Shown here piece after piece: positions 2,810 to 46,086 of a stretch of DNA of 46,086 nt (positions within the stretch are counted from its first letter, which is position 1; each line of letters opens with the position of its first letter). Source of the DNA: a virus; the IMG/VR virus record IMGVR_UViG_3300047377_000522, positions 1 to 46,086 of that record. One strand, given 5' to 3'. Position numbers and translations under genes: made by a program. Under the pieces are notes generated by a model, which was not told the DNA's origin, searched no databases, and was given only the letters and a program-made list of their open reading frames with translations.

Positions 2810-3333
2810 TATCAGTTAAAAAATTCTCAAAACAGATAGGCTTATCAGTAAAGGACGTCCGCCAACACCTGAAAACAGAAGCTTATACCCTAAAAAATGC
2901 GTACGATAAAACCACGGATGAAATAGATCAAAATTCGATCCATGTTGTGGAGTACCTAAAAGAATTGGGGGTTGAGCATACTTTCAAATCTGATACAGAC
3001 GATCTTTTGTCCAAGTTTGACAGGGATCAACTTGAAGCGATGCAGATAGCCGAAAAGATCCAAAAGTTACAATTAGATAGAGAGATCAAAAGAGGCGAGC
3101 TTGTATCTAAAGATAAAGTTAAAACATTGTTTCAAAAACAGATATCATTTTCTGAAAAATTACTCAGCGATAAAGCCGGGAATATTGCAGCTCAATTCTT
3201 TTCTATGCGTGATCTGGATGATCTTACTGAAGATGATTACCGCAAAAAAATTGATGAAATAATGACCAGCGCATTAAATGGATTCATCAAAGATCTAAAA
3301 CAAACTTATTCAATATTTAACGAGGACTTATGA
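2806..3333 (+). CDS. terminase small subunit, Nu1-like, 175 aa
   Basis: Recognises phage DNA and loads the large terminase subunit. The N-terminus (ISVKKFSKQIGLSVKDVRQHLKTEAYTL) looks like the winged helix-turn-helix of Nu1-type packaging proteins. It is followed by a charged helical linker (AMQIAEKIQKLQLDREIKRGEL, with SKDKV after it) and a C-terminal helical region that would bind the large subunit. Length and position directly before a GpA-type terminase, with an ATGA overlap at 3330-3333, agree. The DNA-binding assignment rests on pattern only, so exact recognition sites cannot be given. Confidence 0.75.
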   Translation: MISVKKFSKQIGLSVKDVRQHLKTEAYTLKNAYDKTTDEIDQNSIHVVEYLKELGVEHTFKSDTDDLLSKFDRDQLEAMQIAEKIQKLQLDREIKRGELVSKDKVKTLFQKQISFSEKLLSDKAGNIAAQFFSMRDLDDLTEDDYRKKIDEIMTSALNGFIKDLKQTYSIFNEDL

Positions 3334-5339
3334 AGTTAGCAAATTTCAAAGATAACGAATTTTTTTTAAAATTTATTGAGATGATCCCCACCAAATACCG
3401 CCATGTAAATATCTGCAAGTTCATTGAAAATAATAGATATTTACCGTCAAATGTCAGTCATTTAGCAGGTCACTATTCATTCTCGATCTTCCCCATGCAT
3501 GAAGAGATCCTAAACTGCATGGATCCTAATTCAAATGTTCGAGATGTTACAGTCATGAAGGGGGTTCAAACAGGATTCACAACGATTACTGAAAACGTGA
3601 TCTTGTATTATGCAGTTCAAGAGCGTGGGACTCCTATGATGTTCGTCTCAGCTTTGGCGGAGCTTGCTTCAGAGCGATTTAGAAACAATATCAGGCCAAT
3701 GATCGAACATTCAGGATTCGGGGATCAAATACAGCCATTCAACCCGAAAGACTTCAAAAGATCTGGGGCAACGGATCAACAAATTGAGTTTAACGGTGGA
3801 TCTTACATTGTGGCAAGGGGGGCGCAATCACCCAATAAAGCAAGGTCGGCTTCAATCAAAGTTATGATCCAAGATGAATCCAGCTCTTACCCGGTAGGAA
3901 AGAACAATTCACAAGGGGATATCATAGAACTTTATAATGCCCGTTGTACGGCATTCTGGGCACATAGAAAGATCATACGAGGATCAACGCCATTGGTACA
4001 AGAAACGGATCTTACGTGGCAGAAGTTTATTAATGGAGATCAACGTCATTATTATGTTAAATGTCTTGATTGTAGAATGCCGTTCCATCTTAAGTTCAGG
4101 CATCCGGTAAATGAAGAAACAGGCGTTATTGGTGGCCTTTTTTGGAAGCTTGACGAGAACAAAAACCTGATCAATGAATCTGTACGGTATCATTGCCCAC
4201 ACTGCGGACATCCGCATCAAGAGGCTGATAAATCAAGGTTATTTCAGAAAAATAATGCTGAATGGATCCCTCACAATCCGCTTCAATCAGATGAATTTAG
4301 ATCTTATCACTTATCATCTCTATATTCCCCGACCCACTTTCAGCCGTGGTACAAAGGGGTGGCGGATGCGATCAGGGCTAGAGATTGGGACAACAATGAA
4401 ACGTTAGATCATGAAAAGCTCCAATCATTCTATAATAATATTTTAGGGATGCCATTCGTTAAGTCCTCAATTGGAACAAGAATGACCCTTGAAAAGCTCT
4501 CAAGATTCAGAAGATCATTCTACTATTCAGGACAGATCCCGAACCACAAAACAAAGGATCTAAACAGATCAAATATAGCCTTGTTAACGTGTGCGGTAGA
4601 CGTTCAAAAATCCTTCCTTGCTGTAGCAGTCTTTGGTTGGGCCCGTGGCTGTTCACCTTATCTTATTGAATATAAAGATATAAAAGGCGATATCTTAGAC
4701 CTGAACGATCCGGCTTGGACAATCCTTGAAGAGATGATCTTAAATAAACGATATAAGGATCAAGAAGGGGTTGAATATAGAATCACAACAACAGCAATTG
4801 ATACCAACTTTGAGCCTAAAATCGTTCAAACAGCAGCCGCAAAGATCCTAAAAACTGGTGGAGGTGGGAATATAATTTGCGTGCGTGGCAGAGACAACAT
4901 CAAAAGCGAGGAGCCATTCAAAGCGTCTAAAACCTTTGAAATATATGGGGTTCCTGTTTACAATCTAAGAGTTTCTGACTATAAAGATCATTGGTATTCT
5001 CAGATGGAACTCAACAAGTGGATCGATGGAGAACAACAGCCTGACTACACGCTTAATTTTCCAGCTGATACACGAGATGATCAAATTAAAGAATTGACTT
5101 GTGAAACCAAGACTGCAGTTAAAGATCCAAAAACCAACCGTACGGTTAAGCATATCTGGAAGAGAAAAGGCAACGTGCGGAATGAATTATGGGATTTATT
5201 AGTATATAATACGGCTGTTTTAGATATCATTGCCCGGTGGCGGATGGTTGAAATTTTAGGCGATAAATCAGTTAATTACGACAAGTTTTTTGATGATTGC
5301 GAAGTGAATCAAACATTTGTTGGAAGGTGGAAAAAATGA
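3330..5339 (+). CDS. terminase large subunit, GpA family, 669 aa
   Basis: ATP-driven packaging motor and nuclease that cuts concatemers. The ATPase half shows a Walker A-like KGVQTGFTT at 77-85 and a Walker B VMIQDES at 178-184. Between the two halves is a pair of CxxC motifs (VKCLDC and HCPHCG), a zinc knuckle typical of the GpA family. The C-terminal RNase H-like nuclease has acidic residues in TCAVDVQ, TAIDTNFEP and RNELWDLLVYN. Length is normal for lambda gpA-type enzymes, which mostly cut at cos sites; this supports a cos reading of the 14-bp terminal repeat. Coupled by ATGA overlaps on both sides. Confidence 0.93.
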   Translation: MKLANFKDNEFFLKFIEMIPTKYRHVNICKFIENNRYLPSNVSHLAGHYSFSIFPMHEEILNCMDPNSNVRDVTVMKGVQTGFTTITENVILYYAVQERGTPMMFVSALAELASERFRNNIRPMIEHSGFGDQIQPFNPKDFKRSGATDQQIEFNGGSYIVARGAQSPNKARSASIKVMIQDESSSYPVGKNNSQGDIIELYNARCTAFWAHRKIIRGSTPLVQETDLTWQKFINGDQRHYYVKCLDCRMPFHLKFRHPVNEETGVIGGLFWKLDENKNLINESVRYHCPHCGHPHQEADKSRLFQKNNAEWIPHNPLQSDEFRSYHLSSLYSPTHFQPWYKGVADAIRARDWDNNETLDHEKLQSFYNNILGMPFVKSSIGTRMTLEKLSRFRRSFYYSGQIPNHKTKDLNRSNIALLTCAVDVQKSFLAVAVFGWARGCSPYLIEYKDIKGDILDLNDPAWTILEEMILNKRYKDQEGVEYRITTTAIDTNFEPKIVQTAAAKILKTGGGGNIICVRGRDNIKSEEPFKASKTFEIYGVPVYNLRVSDYKDHWYSQMELNKWIDGEQQPDYTLNFPADTRDDQIKELTCETKTAVKDPKTNRTVKHIWKRKGNVRNELWDLLVYNTAVLDIIARWRMVEILGDKSVNYDKFFDDCEVNQTFVGRWKK

Positions 5340-32570: not shown

Positions 32571-33449
32571 TTAAAAATAATTACCAACTTTATTTATATA
32601 ATAAACATTCTCAAAGATAGCAAGGGCTTGTAACCCTTTACTTGCGATCATATGAGTGACAAATAAAGAAACGCTTTCCGCACCCTGTTCTTTTAGCTTA
32701 GAAGCTAATTGAACAAATGTTGCACCGCCATCGCAAATATCATCAACAATTAAGATGGCTTTATATTCATAATTAACATCTTCTAGCTCTGTTTCAAGGA
32801 TTGCTCCGGTTTCAGTACATCGTTTCTTTTTGCAAAATGCAATGGGAATATTTTTATACCCCATGGTATTTTCAATAGCTTGGATAAAATCATTGCACCG
32901 ATCTGATGCTCCCTGATCAGGTGCGCATACCATAAAATTATCTGAATCAATTAATTCTATTAATTCTGTTAATGTTTTTTTATTGTATGGTGATTCTTTA
33001 AATAAATTTTTAGGCAATCTTACAGAGATTTGATTTAAAGTCGGGAATTCATAAAGATTATCAAGCCATGCCGCAGCCTTTTCGCTGTGGATATCTTCAG
33101 TAGATATCTGTTTAAAATCCTGCATAAACCCTGCAAAAATCTTTAAACCGTACGATTGATTTTCATGGAACCTTCTATCTGCTCTTGCATACGGTAAATA
33201 TGGAATATGCAAAGAAATATTTTTCATTCCAATTTTATATTTACTTTTCAATACTTCGACAATATGCACTAGCTCGATAATTTCTTGGTTTGCGTTTACA
33301 ACATCCCATTTTATGGTTAATTCGTCATCAAGAATAGATTCGTGAAAGCTTAAATCTATTAAGCAAGTCCCATCTGAAAAGTCTATTTTTTTTAGGTCGT
33401 GTTTAATGGCTGTAAAATCGTATTTTTCTGATCGATAAAAACTAAACAT
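32571..33449 (-). CDS. PRPP synthetase-like enzyme (Adps candidate of NARP1), 292 aa
   Basis: Ribose-phosphate pyrophosphokinase fold. LPYARADRR at 85-93 matches the ATP-binding loop of PRPP synthetases, and ILIVDDICDGGATF at 232-245 is the PRPP/ribose-5-phosphate loop. Slightly shorter than bacterial Prs (about 315). In phages this gene next to a NAMPT-like gene forms the NARP1 pathway, in which the Prs-like enzyme (Adps) pyrophosphorylates ADP-ribose. It overlaps the NAMPT-like gene by eight bases, so the two are coupled. Substrate preference (ADP-ribose versus ribose-5-phosphate) cannot be read from the sequence by eye. Confidence 0.85.
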   Translation of the reverse strand: MFSFYRSEKYDFTAIKHDLKKIDFSDGTCLIDLSFHESILDDELTIKWDVVNANQEIIELVHIVEVLKSKYKIGMKNISLHIPYLPYARADRRFHENQSYGLKIFAGFMQDFKQISTEDIHSEKAAAWLDNLYEFPTLNQISVRLPKNLFKESPYNKKTLTELIELIDSDNFMVCAPDQGASDRCNDFIQAIENTMGYKNIPIAFCKKKRCTETGAILETELEDVNYEYKAILIVDDICDGGATFVQLASKLKEQGAESVSLFVTHMIASKGLQALAIFENVYYINKVGNYF

Positions 33450-34929
33450 TGATTAATTCCTCGATTTGTTGATTGATGCGGTCGGTTATTTTGTGAAAAT
33501 TGTTATCCATGTTCCCGAATTCTCTGACATATCGGTCGCAAAGGCTATCTCCACAATGAATTGTTATTAATTCTCCACTGCACATTTCTTCACGGCTTAC
33601 ATTATCTTGTACTATATAATTGCCTTTGTACTTCTCAACGTGGAGATAACCTTTAGCTGATTTTTTGCTTTTGCCGGTTTTTGGGTCCTTAAAAATTGGC
33701 GTATCAACTCCATTTTTTACAATATGAGTGGCCTTAATTGCGCTGCTGTGGGTATCTCTAGTTACGTATTGATAAGAATAAGAGCCAATGCCTAAAACAA
33801 CGTCCGGAATAAAGCCTTTTTGAACTAACCTTGTAATGATTTGATCTTGTCTTTCAAGCGTTATGCTGTCACCGTATATTGCCCCGATTGCCGGGTTCAG
33901 CTGAATAAGCCCGTTTTTCTCTTCGCCTCCAAATATATCGTATAACATTTCAATTAACCCTTTGCGCTCGTGTTTGGTATGCGCTTTAGGGTCCCCGGTG
34001 AGTATCTTGACTGGGTCTCCTGAGTCGGGTCTAATAACCACTTTTCCGCCATGTTCTGTATGGTTATGAAAGATTTTATCCTTCAATTTTGGTAGGTATT
34101 CGGTAACCACACGCCAAAAATCCCACGTATCCGATACGATAGAAACTATTGTCTCACGATGATTATCAATAATTCTTCCAAATGCTTCAAACTCATTTTC
34201 TTTACCGTACGCACACATAACAGAATGTTCAGTCGCTGCAACTGATGAAAATCTAAAACCTCCATAATATTCATTAGCCAATACTGCAGCCGGGATATTA
34301 TCTGAACCACTGAAGCAACACAGATGCCCAAATCCGCTCATGGCTGCAGCTTCGCCTCCGAACATGCCACGGTAAGAAAAGTCGTGGCATAAATACGGTA
34401 TAATTTCTTTATCAATAGATGTTTCTTTTTCTAATCGCAATCTATAAGCGAAAGCAGTTGATGCGCTGGTTGACATAGCCCAAATTACCGCACTTAAGCT
34501 CGTTTCTATGTAATTGGTTAGCCATGCAAATTCGGGATGAGTGTTTTCTATTGTTATGCATGGCACGCCATACGGGACTAAAGAGCCTTCTGGCAAAGCT
34601 TTAATCTTTAAGGGTAAATAACCGAGTTTATGCAAAGCCTCAAAATGTTTTAAGTCTGTTTTTCTTCCAAGTGCGCCATCAACAAATTCCCGGTAAGTAT
34701 CTTCTACCTCTTCCCAATTTTGATCAAAGAAATCTTCTCGCCATTGGCCCAGATATTTTTTTATATAGTATGTAATCCCAACAAAAACGACTTTATCTAA
34801 ATGAGTATTGGATAAATCCCCGTTTCTAAAAGTAAAGTTAGAATAAATATATCCCACACCTTCAGGATATAAGGACTGGTGTCCGGTTTTATACATGTCA
34901 GTTTGTAGATAAATTGGTATATTGTTCAT
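33442..34929 (-). CDS. nicotinamide phosphoribosyltransferase-like (Namat candidate of NARP1), 495 aa
   Basis: NAMPT fold and length (family about 470-500). The catalytic His is His235 in ATEHSVM. RPDSGDPVK at 300-308 matches the ribose-phosphate-binding RPDSG region, and YGDSITLERQDQI and GIGSYSYQYVTRDTH are the expected substrate loops. In phages the pair with a Prs-like enzyme makes NAD+ from ADP-ribose and nicotinamide (Namat), reversing NAD+ depletion by host defences such as Thoeris or DSR systems. Alone it would be a NAD+ salvage enzyme. Driven by a consensus promoter at 34962-34990, first gene of its transcript. Confidence 0.88.
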   Translation of the reverse strand: MNNIPIYLQTDMYKTGHQSLYPEGVGYIYSNFTFRNGDLSNTHLDKVVFVGITYYIKKYLGQWREDFFDQNWEEVEDTYREFVDGALGRKTDLKHFEALHKLGYLPLKIKALPEGSLVPYGVPCITIENTHPEFAWLTNYIETSLSAVIWAMSTSASTAFAYRLRLEKETSIDKEIIPYLCHDFSYRGMFGGEAAAMSGFGHLCCFSGSDNIPAAVLANEYYGGFRFSSVAATEHSVMCAYGKENEFEAFGRIIDNHRETIVSIVSDTWDFWRVVTEYLPKLKDKIFHNHTEHGGKVVIRPDSGDPVKILTGDPKAHTKHERKGLIEMLYDIFGGEEKNGLIQLNPAIGAIYGDSITLERQDQIITRLVQKGFIPDVVLGIGSYSYQYVTRDTHSSAIKATHIVKNGVDTPIFKDPKTGKSKKSAKGYLHVEKYKGNYIVQDNVSREEMCSGELITIHCGDSLCDRYVREFGNMDNNFHKITDRINQQIEELINV

Positions 34930-36103: not shown

Positions 36104-38461
36104 TTACTTAATCAATGATTGTTTAAGTTTAAATCTTTCAAACGTCCTGCCGTTGACGTTTTTTGTTATACTTATAATATAACCCGCTTCAATCAGGTTG
36201 TCAAGTAATTGAGTAATATTTTTATCATCAATTTTGTATTTTTTAACCGTACGCCTGATCTTACTCAGAACCTCCCCTTCCGTCTTATCGCACGCTTGCA
36301 GGATTGAGGCTTTAACCGCTTTCTGTCTGTCCTCCTCGTTTACCGTATCCGGTCCGCCTTTACTGATTACACTCATTAATATTTTAGTCTGAATATCATT
36401 CTGTATTAATGCAAAAGCGTATATAATATCCTGCTCTGTAATCTCTCCACGCAGCGCAGACATTAGACTAGCCACTGTTACCGTATGCTCGAAAGCTCGC
36501 ATATAAAGCGGCTGGATGTCTTCATCTGCATTTTCCGCGCATTGTTCAAAAAATTTATGAATTTGCACCGACCGAGCTTTGGCATGTTCATTGCATGTTA
36601 TTTGGTATGGCTCCCCCCAAAACTCTAAACCGTACTCCGGGTTATAACCTGAATCAGAATCTCTAGCTCTCTGAGTAATCAAATCAAGTTTATTTATGAT
36701 CTCGTTCGGTATCTGCTCCCGTGCGTTGTTATTGTCACCCACCCCATAAAATAAAGGGGGTGGCGTGTTGTCAGTCTCTTTAAATATTAAAAACCTTCCT
36801 ATTAAACCGGTGGCTATACTCTTAATGTTTATTGTCTTATCTAGCCCGATTGGCGTAGATGTTGCATATATATTTAATATAGGGTTTATAATACCCTGTT
36901 CTAAATAAGTTTTCTTTTTACTCTCTCTCTGTTTGTAACAATGCCAGAATTTTTCTTGATCCGGCTCGCATTCCTTAAGCTGCTTCTCTATCCTGTCTAA
37001 TGTGCGGTTTAAATTTTCTTTGAATGAATCTTGATCTTTATGCCGTATAGTGTGCACTTTATCAGTTTTTAAATTCAGCATAGCAGGGGCAATTTTCTGT
37101 ATGTATGTATTTGCTTTAGCGTCATCTATATGATTAAAAATTTTATGAGCCTCATCAATCGCATAGAATACGATTTGGTTACGGTATAGTGACTTGTGCA
37201 TGTCTACGTCACTCGCCATCTCTGAGTTTAGCGCCTTAGCGTATCCCATCCTGATTAATATTTCCTTGGAGACTGAATAAGGGTGGTCCTTCCCCGATCC
37301 GGATGCAGCAATCCCCATACAGTATAATGACAATTTACCGCCTAGTGGGGCTATATATAATCTATTCATGACGCAACTCATAGTCCAGAGTGCGGAAGCC
37401 ACTGCCAACAAAGGCCGCTGTTTAAACGCTGTTCTGTTTATATACTCTACAATATCCCCTATTAAACCGTGTGGCTGTCTAATATCCACTTTATCAGCTA
37501 ATTCTAGTAGTTCATTTTTATTAAATACGGCATCTTGTTTACTAGATTCAAAATACTGATCTATATCAGCAGTTGTATTGTTAAGAGGATGTACATACCC
37601 GTTTTCGTACGCCATCTTGATTAACGTGCCAATGGTTACTGGGGATCCTGAGTTGTTACCAAATGATAGCCACTTTTTATGATTATAATCTGAGCTAGTA
37701 TATTTATCAGATGTTTTACTCCAATTGTCCCAGATAGCGAACGCTGTATTGTCAGTATGATGAATTGCCATGCCTACGTTTAACCATTCATCATACTCTA
37801 AATTTTTATTCGGTACATAATCTAGTAAATCGTTTATATCGCCATCATAATCATTTAATTGGTGAATAGGTGGTGGTTTACGTTCGATTAATTGTATTAA
37901 TGCCGCTGGGGCGTCCTCAATCGAATCTAGAGACGTTGAAAAGCCGTGATCAAGGGTATAGTAGCCCCCTGACTTGTGGAGACTGCCAGAGGCCACGACA
38001 AAGGCCCCTTTACTCAAAAAGTCAATACCCTTGAAATCTTTAAGTGATTTCATGGTTTTTATGGTATCGGGCTTGGTATAGTAAAGGTGAAAACCTCCCC
38101 CGCCGCTTTTAACGCCAACATTGCAATTTTCCAGATCCGGGATGATACCGCATAATTTCTTATAAGACTCTAGACCTCCATTTTTCGGATCCACGTCAAC
38201 GATCAGGTGGTGGTCCTCCAGCAAGAAACCGAATCCTGTCGGGTTTCCACCATTCACAATATCCAATTTCAAATTATCGTATGGCGTTTTATTTCCTATG
38301 TAATTCTGCCAGCCACGATATTTAGGATGCTTGCCAGCAAGACGGCATTCAGTATTACCACATCCGCACACCTGCCCGTTTTTGATTGAATGAAGTTCGA
38401 CTATAGATAGTCCTGCATGCTGATGAGCGAGCAGGCTATCACTAATAAGATTATTCTGCAT
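36104..38461 (-). CDS. primase-polymerase with helicase-like ATPase domain, 785 aa
   Basis: Central replication enzyme. The N-terminal Prim-Pol domain shows DVD at 89-91 (IVDVDPKNGG), SGGGGFHLYY near 117-126 and an FLSKGAFVVASGS segment, as in archaeo-eukaryotic-type primases of phages and plasmids. At about 210-290 a PriCT-like domain (LEYDEWLNVGMAIHHT) follows. Then comes a DUF3987-like ATPase with Walker A in AASGSGKDHPYSV at about 385-395 and YAIDEAHKIF as Walker B. The last 70 residues form a winged-helix-like domain (SKIRRTVKKYKIDDKNITQL). The gene next to the iteron region suggests this enzyme acts at that origin. Confidence 0.87.
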   Translation of the reverse strand: MQNNLISDSLLAHQHAGLSIVELHSIKNGQVCGCGNTECRLAGKHPKYRGWQNYIGNKTPYDNLKLDIVNGGNPTGFGFLLEDHHLIVDVDPKNGGLESYKKLCGIIPDLENCNVGVKSGGGGFHLYYTKPDTIKTMKSLKDFKGIDFLSKGAFVVASGSLHKSGGYYTLDHGFSTSLDSIEDAPAALIQLIERKPPPIHQLNDYDGDINDLLDYVPNKNLEYDEWLNVGMAIHHTDNTAFAIWDNWSKTSDKYTSSDYNHKKWLSFGNNSGSPVTIGTLIKMAYENGYVHPLNNTTADIDQYFESSKQDAVFNKNELLELADKVDIRQPHGLIGDIVEYINRTAFKQRPLLAVASALWTMSCVMNRLYIAPLGGKLSLYCMGIAASGSGKDHPYSVSKEILIRMGYAKALNSEMASDVDMHKSLYRNQIVFYAIDEAHKIFNHIDDAKANTYIQKIAPAMLNLKTDKVHTIRHKDQDSFKENLNRTLDRIEKQLKECEPDQEKFWHCYKQRESKKKTYLEQGIINPILNIYATSTPIGLDKTINIKSIATGLIGRFLIFKETDNTPPPLFYGVGDNNNAREQIPNEIINKLDLITQRARDSDSGYNPEYGLEFWGEPYQITCNEHAKARSVQIHKFFEQCAENADEDIQPLYMRAFEHTVTVASLMSALRGEITEQDIIYAFALIQNDIQTKILMSVISKGGPDTVNEEDRQKAVKASILQACDKTEGEVLSKIRRTVKKYKIDDKNITQLLDNLIEAGYIISITKNVNGRTFERFKLKQSLIK

Positions 38462-38642
38462 GATTGTCCACTATCAATATGGCGTTCTGTTGTCTGATGT
38501 CTGAGAAAATACGTTTAAAGTTATCTAGTGTTTCATCTCTCTTAACTTTTGATTTTTTAGCTCTCTCAATATCATCTATTAACTCGTCTATTTCATCAAC
38601 AGTCCAGATTGTAGTTCTATTGTAGTCTATGTCTAAATGCAT
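38451..38642 (-). CDS. hypothetical acidic protein, 63 aa
   Basis: First leftward gene after the proposed origin. MHLDIDYNRTTIWTVDEIDE, a helical acidic region and NAILIVDNHAE at the end. It overlaps the primase-polymerase gene by eleven bases, so the two are translated together. It could assist initiation of replication, as origin-proximal small proteins often do, but this is context only. GGAGC lies eight bases before the ATG. Confidence 0.58.
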   Translation of the reverse strand: MHLDIDYNRTTIWTVDEIDELIDDIERAKKSKVKRDETLDNFKRIFSDIRQQNAILIVDNHAE

Positions 38643-38673
38643 TTTTATTGCTCCATTTTGTTAGTGTTTGAAT

Positions 38674-38702
38674 AGTATATGTCAACTAAATGAATATAGC
38701 AA
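38674..38702 (-). promoter_or_regulatory. probable leftward promoter beside the origin
   Basis: Minus-strand TTGCTA (38697-38702), 17-base spacer and TATACT (38674-38679). A TTGACA directly upstream of the -10 does not have a proper partner. It would drive the 63-aa and primase-polymerase genes. Confidence 0.45.
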
Positions 38703-38703
38703 G

Positions 38704-39080
38704 TGAAAAAAAGCATTTTGACCATTTTGCATGCATTTTGAGCATTTTGCATAGCATTTTGCAACACGAGCAAAATGCTCAAGGCCCGTGATACGGGGGC
38801 TGAAGAGCATTTTGTCATTTTGTACACTATAGCGATAGATATATATATATATATATATATATTTTATATATATATATTATGTGTTTGTTTTGTGTTTTTA
38901 TCTCTATTTATGTGTTTTAAGAAATTTTGTGCAAAATGACAAAATGCTCTGAAAAATGGCCGCAAACCCACGCCAGACGTGGCCTGAGCATTTTGTAAAA
39001 CACGAGCAAAATGCTTGCAAAATGCTATGCAAAATGCTCGAGCATGTTGTTTCATGCTGTGCAAAATGGTCATTTTTTAA
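38704..39080. other. putative replication origin: inverted iterons and TA-rich core
   Basis: The stretch of about 540 bases between divergent genes has no credible gene. Left arm (about 38706-38825): seven CATTTTG and one CAAAATG. Right arm (about 38929-39078): six CAAAATG and one CATTTTG. The arms are imperfect inverted copies of one another, including GAGCATTTTGTCATTTTG at the inner ends. Between them is an AT-rich region with a (TA)n tract at 38836-38880. Each arm also has a small GC hairpin (38783-38800, CCCGTGATACGGGG type, and 38969-38983, CCACGCCAGACGTGG). This is the classical layout of iteron origins with an unwinding element. Confidence 0.75.
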
Positions 39081-39125
39081 CCAATTTATATTTAACGGTG
39101 TGCGGTATAAAGAGTTGATTATTTC

Positions 39126-39153
39126 TTGACATGAGTAATAATAGATATATAAT
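39126..39153 (+). promoter_or_regulatory. rightward promoter beside the origin
   Basis: TTGACA at 39126-39131, 16-base spacer and TATAAT at 39148-39153, 28 bases ahead of the first glycine-rich gene. Confidence 0.8.
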
Positions 39154-39180
39154 TGAAATATCAAATGCGGAGATATAAGA

Positions 39181-39369
39181 ATGATTATTCAATTATGTAG
39201 CGATGAAGTTTTAGAATATGCGGTTCGAATTACTGAAGGTGGCGCTTGTGCGTGGGGGATGGGCTGGGGCCAAGGTGACGGGTGGGCGGGCTGTGAAGGT
39301 GAAGGTGACGGATGCGGTATGGGTCGTCCGGAGCAGAGAGGAAACGGAAACGGGGGCGGCTTCGGATAA
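39181..39369 (+). CDS. IQLC/glycine-rich family protein 1, 62 aa
   Basis: First member of a family seen only in this cluster of the window. The head is IIQLCSDEVLEYAVRITE; the tail is mostly glycine with Asp, Trp, Cys and Glu (AWGMGWGQGDGWAGCEGEGD). GGAGATATAAGA is the ribosome site. Its stop overlaps the start of member 2 (TAATG). The head is probably a short helix and the tail is unstructured or forms a repetitive sheet or helix. No known function. Confidence 0.65.
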   Translation: MIIQLCSDEVLEYAVRITEGGACAWGMGWGQGDGWAGCEGEGDGCGMGRPEQRGNGNGGGFG

Positions 39370-39530
39370 TGAATAAAATTCAACTTTGTAGTGATGATGT
39401 TTTAAAGAATACTGTACGGATTATGGATATATATTATTATCTTCGTTTTTGGGCTGAAATAGAATACGGAACGATTGACGATTACGGGTGGGGGCATCGG
39501 TATGGTGATGTGAAAAATAATTTTAGATAA
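39369..39530 (+). CDS. IQLC family protein 2, 53 aa
   Basis: Starts MNKIQLCSDDVLKNTVRIMD, then IYYYLRFWAEIEYGTIDDYG and a short glycine/His tail. The YLRFWAEIEYGTI segment is shared with member 3 (QRFWAEIYYGTIADYG). Here the glycine-rich part is nearly absent, so members differ mainly in tail length. Coupled by TAATG to member 1. Function unknown. Confidence 0.6.
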   Translation: MNKIQLCSDDVLKNTVRIMDIYYYLRFWAEIEYGTIDDYGWGHRYGDVKNNFR

Positions 39531-41511: not shown

Positions 41512-42060
41512 ATGAAAATTCAAGACGCTTTCAATCTCTTAAAAATCGAAACTGAGCAAGCAACTCACAAAGAAATTAAAAAAGCATTCAAAAAAAGAGC
41601 TTTAGAATTTCATCCCGACCGTGGCGTGGCTGATGATTCAATGATGAAGTCATTATGCGAGGCTAGAGATTTTCTTATTTCTCAACAAGAGCCGGTTTGC
41701 AATACGTATGAATATAAAGGCGAGACAAAACAAGCTAAGTTTGACCCTGAGTTTTCCGACAAAATCTATGCAGCAATATCGGAAATTCAAGACCTTGAAG
41801 GCCTTATTATTGAGATCAGAGGCTCGTGGGTTTGGGTTTCTGGCGAGACAAAGCAACACAAAGAAGAGTTGAAAAAAGCAGGCTTTAAATTTTCATCTAA
41901 TAAGTGTGAGTGGTATTTTAACCCTACACCATTCAAAGCTAAAACAAGACGAGGAGGGAAAACTTTTTCAAGCGATGAAATCCGAGACATGCACGGATCA
42001 ACATTTGTTAAAAAATGTACTAAAATCAATGGTTACCATAGAAAAATGGTAGCGGCATAA
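41512..42060 (+). CDS. J-domain (DnaJ-like) protein, 182 aa
   Basis: Residues 1-55 are a J domain (FNLLKIETEQATHKEIKKAF) with the essential HPD at 34-36, so it should stimulate the host Hsp70 (DnaK). The rest has no zinc-finger region; a C-terminal domain (LEGLIIEIRGSWVWVSGETK, KKAGFKFSSNKCEWYFNP) similar to those in other phage and plasmid J-domain proteins probably binds a client. It may redirect DnaK to phage replication or assembly. It has its own class B promoter and an AAAGGAC ribosome site. Confidence 0.8.
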   Translation: MKIQDAFNLLKIETEQATHKEIKKAFKKRALEFHPDRGVADDSMMKSLCEARDFLISQQEPVCNTYEYKGETKQAKFDPEFSDKIYAAISEIQDLEGLIIEIRGSWVWVSGETKQHKEELKKAGFKFSSNKCEWYFNPTPFKAKTRRGGKTFSSDEIRDMHGSTFVKKCTKINGYHRKMVAA

Positions 42061-45927: not shown

Positions 45928-46076
45928 TGCGCATTAAATATATTATGTTAAATAGACGGTTTACCGTATTGTGTGTTGCTTATCTTTATTATGTTAAATT
46001 GTGCCGATTATGCGGCTATCTCCTTCTATTTTCGGTGAAAAGGTACTGTATGTCCAAAAAAAAACGCTCGAGATGA
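45927..46076 (+). CDS. small basic protein, 49 aa
   Basis: The ATG overlaps the stop of the methyltransferase gene (TAATG at 45925-45929). The product is MRIKYIMLNRRFTVLCVAYL, then a Tyr/Leu/Cys-rich hydrophobic part and a basic end MSKKKRSR. It would have one membrane segment and a positive tail. On a circular map the stop overlaps the ATG of the 31-aa peptide at 1-96. Coupling supports it; size limits confidence. Confidence 0.4.
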   Translation: MRIKYIMLNRRFTVLCVAYLYYVKLCRLCGYLLLFSVKRYCMSKKKRSR

Positions 46077-46086
46077 GTTTGCCGCC
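46073..46086. repeat. 14-bp terminal direct repeat, right copy
   Basis: Identical to bases 1-14. See the left copy for the two explanations. Confidence 0.8.

Follow-up and report, generated by a model that had tools for sequence, protein, structure and literature searches.

A mirrored iteron array beside a PrimPol-helicase gene as a probable replication origin in tailed phages

We find that a mirrored, two-armed array of CATTTTG iterons in a 46,086-nucleotide viral genome (IMG/VR record IMGVR_UViG_3300047377_000522; this whole stretch is called the window) is probably the replication origin of a phage, with the PrimPol-helicase encoded beside it as the initiator. Comparison of related and recombinant phages supports the view that iteron specificity sits in the C-terminal winged helix of this protein, a reading drawn from sequence comparison. 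A first-pass annotation of the same DNA had proposed an origin here, and that proposal is strengthened by the recurrence of the layout next to the same kind of initiator-type gene in many phages, by a melting-prone core and by a nearby skew minimum. The window encodes terminase, portal, capsid and tail sheath proteins and thus comes from a myovirus-like phage. The same 14 bases (ATGAGTTTGCCGCC) stand at both of its ends (1-14 and 46073-46086), which suggests a circular or terminally redundant genome, although the record contains no longer end repeat.

The array, its core and its neighbours in the window

The array contains 15 exact copies of CATTTTG/CAAAATG within 355 bp (38714-39068), whereas dinucleotide shuffles of the same stretch (n = 5000) average 0.4 copies and never exceed 4. 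A 16th copy is located beyond the array at 38654. Our recount reproduces the copy number and the 7+1 and 6+1 split between the arms given in the first-pass annotation, and iteron orientation is unequal between the arms (Fisher one-sided p = 0.009). The mirrored arms described there correspond to a perfect 25-bp inverted repeat, the halves of which are 250 bp apart, and to a second mirrored pair of 52 nt (73%, 38804-38855 / 38899-38950); folded as a single strand, the array lies 12.6 sd below shuffles. Read towards the centre, each arm begins with several inward-pointing iterons, followed by a single flipped one and by a spacer that contains a GC hairpin, and closes with an inner tandem pair (Table 1). 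The GC hairpins in both arms and the (TA)n core were also found as annotated. Positions 38840-38899 in this core represent the least stable 60 bp of the whole 46-kb genome, and the TA-rich core is likely the duplex-unwinding element. Neither Megablast of the array region against a phage collection nor an Rfam search of 38400-39400 returned a match.

Table 1. Coordinates of the array, its parts and selected genes in the window.
Feature	Position	Strand	Remarks
Large terminase	3330-5339		
PrimPol-PriCT_2-AAA+ (DUF3987-like)-winged helix replication protein	36104-38461	-	785 aa, phrog_3022; proposed initiator
C-terminal winged helix, about residues 709-779	36125-36337	-	Proposed iteron reader; AF2, PDB wHTH matches
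63-aa ORF	38451-38642	-	Overlaps PrimPol start; position kept in relatives, sequence not
Left arm	38714-38822	+	7 CATTTTG on + (38714, 38723, 38734, 38743, 38755, 38808, 38816), 1 inverted (38771)
Perfect 25-bp inverted repeat, left half	38740-38764	+	Partner 39015-39039
GC hairpin CCCGT-gat-ACGGG	38785-38797		Left-arm spacer, read directly from sequence
Inner tandem pair CATTTTGTCATTTTG, left arm	38808-38822	+	8-bp step
TA-rich core	38836-38899		(TA)n tract between arms; putative duplex-unwinding element
Inner tandem pair, right arm	38932-38946	-	8-bp step, mirrors left pair
GC hairpin CCACG-ccaga-CGTGG	38968-38982		Right-arm spacer, read directly from sequence
Right arm	38932-39068	-	6 CATTTTG on - (38932, 38940, 39007, 39018, 39030, 39062), 1 inverted (38989)
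Perfect 25-bp inverted repeat, right half	39015-39039	-	Partner 38740-38764
Sigma-70-type promoter TTGACA-16-TATAAT	39126-39153	+	Perfect; for right arm of genes; outside array

To the left of the array lie the 63-aa ORF and then the gene for the PrimPol-helicase. This protein matches the phrog_3022 profile over its full length (residues 21-779, E 4.2e-87) and scores above the cut-offs for PF09250 (Prim-Pol, 1.1e-11) and PF08707 (PriCT_2, 4.8e-21). DUF3987 reaches 23.5 bits against a cut-off of 27, with a Walker-like GSGK visible, and is above the cut-off in the relatives from pYD21-A, phiHSIC and Sa179lw. The AF2 model of the C-terminus has the order helix-helix-helix-strand-strand (pLDDT 80-90) and resembles winged-helix proteins such as PadR (TM 0.6-0.65; no match at E 0.001), and a weak match to the MCM_C wHTH profile was found in the same region; a PDB sequence search gave no match. 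On this model, the phrog_3022 protein of the window is one with a C-terminal winged helix. The helicase half was otherwise predicted with low confidence, and we therefore do not argue a ring structure from AF2. No plasmid-type Rep (RepA/TrfA type, initiator wHTH without primase) was found among the window proteins scanned, a subset of the ORFs.

The cumulative GC skew, named in the first-pass annotation as a check, reaches its detrended minimum at 38659, a distance of 231 bp from the centre of the array. This would fit an origin, but the signal is confounded by a switch of gene direction at that very place. Detrended minima are found 54-231 bp from the array in four of five genomes. Phage H103 is the exception: its minimum coincides with the gene-direction switch, 2.5 kb away from the array; because the minimum follows the switch in this genome, we take the skew as weak support.

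Several other genes of the window were recorded. A nicotinamide phosphoribosyltransferase gene adjoins a ribose-phosphate pyrophosphokinase gene (32571-34929, minus strand), possibly an NAD+ salvage pair directed against NAD-depleting defences. Two neighbouring tiny ORFs (39181-39530, plus strand) share the start (I)IQLCSD(E/D)VL and then diverge, the first ending in a Gly-rich tail; a family search with both gave no match. The early right arm also encodes a protein with an N-terminal DnaJ domain (41512-42060, plus strand).

Array and PrimPol-helicase in related phages

We compared about 20 relatives of the phrog_3022 PrimPol-helicase. In most of those examined, from Vibrio, Pseudoalteromonas and enterobacterial phages, a similar two-armed array is located beside the phrog_3022 gene, with repeat letters other than those of the window, among them CATTTTTCC, CAAATCA, GCTTCCCG, CTATTTCCCG and CTAWWTGCC. 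The PrimPols nearest to that of the window (42-45% identity) are found in Vibrio phages, the arrays of which lie directly upstream of the PrimPol gene and are two-armed around AT-rich DNA. Their iterons are CATTTTTCC in 13VT501A, MAG7, 1.164.O and 1.124.O, and CAAATCA in 1.174.O. An alignment search of IMG/VR added three further loci of the CATTTTTCC and CAAATCA kinds; a scan of viral_contigs with a single protein had returned no match, a search of genome_contigs found none, and a plasmid search gave partial, weak matches only. The arrays of two Nahant Vibrio phages (L009 1755-1796, L010 1699-1740) are annotated as 'CRISPR spacer', which looks like a mis-annotation of origin iterons.

Among more distant members of the family, the iterons are GCTTCCCG in Sf11 and ECO95, CTATTTCCCG in gmqsjt-1 and ECO111, CTATTTGCC in Sa179lw and CTAAATGCC in YX3973, and repeats of GATAGTA, GACTTTA and a TGATCA type are present in H103, some Klebsiella phages and pYD21-A, respectively. 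The array stands behind the PrimPol gene, not ahead of it, in H103, in the IMG/VR contig L064 and in Klebsiella phages, where the downstream arrays are also sparser. No array could be defined in RSU-F4K5, P400 and RS51pmB. In Sf11 (L090 1534-1640), VLCpiS13c (L019 5376-5430) and gmqsjt-1 (L092 860-915), the middle of the array consists of runs of 8-9 C or G with no long TA tract; since these runs replace the TA tract, the centre may open or fold differently there.

We also approached the association from the DNA side, scanning IMG/VR for three spaced CATTTTG copies without protein information. This returned 66 stretches, two of them with 11 copies within 500 bp (contigs L064 and L070). The 11 copies of L064 are of mixed orientation and lie directly behind a helicase gene of phrog_3022 (E 2e-84), starting about 40 bp past its stop codon; this distant contig contains the same 15-letter inner pair CATTTTGTCATTTTG as the window. 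Across the 66 stretches, only L064 matched the family HMM strongly (1e-155), and L028 gave a weak primase-domain match (8e-11). L070 was discarded, having ten copies in one direction, one in the other and no PrimPol match, as were the other CATTTTG-rich contigs, in which repeats run in one direction and no strong PrimPol match was found. As it depends on a single contig, the DNA-side search is supportive and not conclusive.

Which part of the protein follows the repeat letters

Natural recombinants allow the parts of the module to be compared separately. Vibrio phages 1.124.O and 1.174.O are 92% identical in the flanking DNA and 90% in the PrimPol half, but only 40% in the array, 48% in the small ORF and 53% in the helicase-winged-helix half. 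Loci L013 and L014 repeat this pattern on a different background, with 90% identity in the upstream gene, 88% in the PrimPol half, 35% in the array and 52% in the C-terminal half, whereas within an iteron class (L010/L013 and L011/L014) every segment of the module is at least 83% identical. Array, small ORF and C-terminal half are exchanged together in these mosaics while the PrimPol half is unchanged. Phage 13VT501A has an unrelated small ORF, yet its iterons and C-terminal half are of the CATTTTTCC class, and it shares 72-75% identity with 1.164.O, which has the same iterons, over the last ~85 residues.

A finer contrast is provided by six enterobacterial genomes, which encode PrimPols of exactly 777 residues and belong to three iteron classes, with few iterons in class B (two exact copies each). 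In residues 701-777, pairs with the same iterons differ at 0, 0 and 1 positions and pairs with different iterons at 12-16. Residues 1-300 do not track the iterons: gmqsjt-1 and YX3973, with different iterons, have 3 differences, and YX3973 and Sa179lw, of the same class, have 23. Nor do residues 301-700, with 1 difference between Sf11 and gmqsjt-1 (iterons differ) and 17 between YX3973 and Sa179lw. Across the whole protein, gmqsjt-1 and YX3973 differ at 3 positions in residues 1-300, 3 in 301-700 and 16 in 701-777. Aligned with the predicted secondary structure, the changed winged-helix positions fall mainly in the third helix and the wing. The winged helices of Sa179lw (L020) and YX3973 (L093) are one residue apart (E/D737), and their iterons (CTATTTGCC / CTAAATGCC) differ at two central positions. 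These comparisons indicate that only the C-terminal winged helix of the PrimPol-helicase (the last ~75 residues) follows the repeat letters in recombinant phages; neither the PrimPol domain nor the small ORF does so, and nor does the helicase core in the enterobacterial set. As no close mosaic partner of the window was found, the role of its winged helix is assigned by homology.

The co-variation bears on whether the array could instead be an operator, that is, a repressor- or activator-bound control region of two divergent early transcripts, with the origin elsewhere. The array does lie between divergent gene blocks with an excellent promoter just to its right, and in phages of Klebsiella, Yersinia and Proteus, small ORFs upstream of PrimPol carry annotations as Cro-like or transcriptional regulators. 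However, the array does not include that promoter, and an operator has no need for a weak-duplex core with mirrored arms. The repeat letters track the PrimPol winged helix and not the small ORF, and the arrays of L064 and H103, behind the PrimPol gene, are not in a divergent promoter region; for these reasons we set a pure operator aside as unlikely. Autoregulation by the initiator on the same sites would fit the origin reading as well.

We consider it highly improbable that the array is an origin for which the small upstream protein serves as the specific binder or loader, the PrimPol-helicase being recruited secondarily. A small ORF precedes the PrimPol gene in most relatives and is exchanged along with the array in the Vibrio mosaics. 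The first-pass annotation had suggested a possibly new binder, the 63-aa protein being one candidate, but small ORF and iterons are uncoupled among relatives: the small ORFs of Sf11 and Sa179lw (85% identical) and of ECO95 and gmqsjt-1 (83%) go with different iterons, and those of Sf11 and ECO95 (only 45%) and of YX3973 and Sa179lw (25%) with the same iteron, as in 13VT501A. Profile searches with the 63-aa protein of the window returned no recognisable DNA-binding family, and we set it aside as the binder in favour of the winged helix. Least credible of all is a packaging (pac/cos), recombination or partition site. Large inverted repeats can mark recombination or partition sites, and terminase genes adjoin the array in 13VT501A, but the constant neighbour across relatives is PrimPol and not terminase (about 3 kb from the array in Sa179lw; for the window, see Table 1), and the repeat letters co-vary with a domain of the replication protein.

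Proposed initiation, known systems and implications

For the array as an origin, we propose that copies of the PrimPol-helicase would bind the inward-pointing iterons of both arms by their winged helices, bringing together two ring-shaped helicase assemblies, one on either side of the TA tract. The tract would then melt, each ring would load onto one strand, and the PrimPol domain of the same polypeptide would prime synthesis. With a ring on each strand and priming by the same polypeptide, two forks could move off in opposite directions. Two symmetric assemblies with bidirectional firing, as suggested in the first-pass annotation, are plausible. The core binding sites may be the inner tandem pairs, with their step of 7-9 bp; assembly may be helped or regulated by the outer iterons together with the single inverted iteron and the hairpin spacer.

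The first-pass annotation had set a mirrored, two-armed iteron array apart from known iteron origins. Two-armed origins are not new, because in PICI/SaPI origins (pri-rep-ori) an AT-rich region is always flanked by two sets of iterons, a layout that a 2018 report described as unique among known bacterial replicons (PMC6092414). As there, two sets of short iterons in the window surround an AT-rich, likely melting site beside an initiator-helicase gene (PMC6092414), and the iterons of SaPI Rep and Cch2 are read by C-terminal domains (PMC7581432). The replicon of the window differs in being a whole tailed phage with an AEP PrimPol fused to a DUF3987-like ATPase as the proposed initiator; the phage arms are clearly inverted, one iteron in each being flipped, and in most cases the gene lies downstream of the array. 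An origin 3' of rep, a satellite island and the PICI gene order are not found here. The window array would therefore work like a PICI origin and is not one, since it stands on the 5' side of the gene, in a phage that encodes terminase, portal, capsid and tail sheath proteins of its own.

In phage P4, ori and crr are separate sites. P4 alpha is summarised as one polypeptide that binds origin repeats by a winged helix, unwinds and primes, as proposed here, but with a primase of the Toprim type (PMC4234260). The PrimQH family has the order PrimPol-PriCT-ATPase-WH with DUF3987 and a C-terminal WH, and we liken the window protein, with its DUF3987-like region, to it by domain order; in the text available, its authors suggest the WH domain as a possible origin recogniser, a prediction that names no cognate origin or repeat (PMC5862659). 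ORF904 of pRN1 and phage BIP-1 likewise combine an AEP primase, a helicase and a C-terminal winged helix with an origin beside the gene, but that origin is described as a stem-loop without iterons, and a 2014 proposal extends stem-loop origins without iterons to AEP-helicase-WH proteins generally (PMC4234260). The phrog_3022 phage group, which has iterons, does not fit this proposal. In PLE RepA, changes in the DNA-binding domain go with changes in the origin, and the two are exchanged as one module (PMC8263062); RepA, however, has an N-terminal RepA_N domain and neither primase nor helicase, and belongs to satellites, not phages. The NrS-1 PrimPol (NrSPol) is a phage PrimPol-helicase that also starts at a specific sequence (PMC8718748), but there a helix-bundle domain reads the TTTGGTTA motif as a primase template site, in contrast to an iteron array read by a winged helix. 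The open-licence papers searched contained no identified origin for phrog_3022 phages and no test of the predicted role of the winged helix as origin reader; a description in a subscription journal is possible.

For phrog_3022 phages, the comparison sets out a probable origin, its putative reader and six types of repeat, each with the sequence of its reader. They include pairs of proteins with a handful of residue differences outside the winged helix and 12-16 inside it, and such near-identical pairs make protein-DNA recognition directly testable. Tentatively, tailed phages with PrimPol-helicases may carry exchangeable specificity types, in which a winged helix of ~75 residues and an iteron set move as a cassette of two parts, even without exchange of the intervening genes, and so form incompatibility groups; their diversity might be kept by selection from satellites, rival phages or origin-targeting defences, as in PLE/Odn. 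The analysis suggests how phages change replication specificity.
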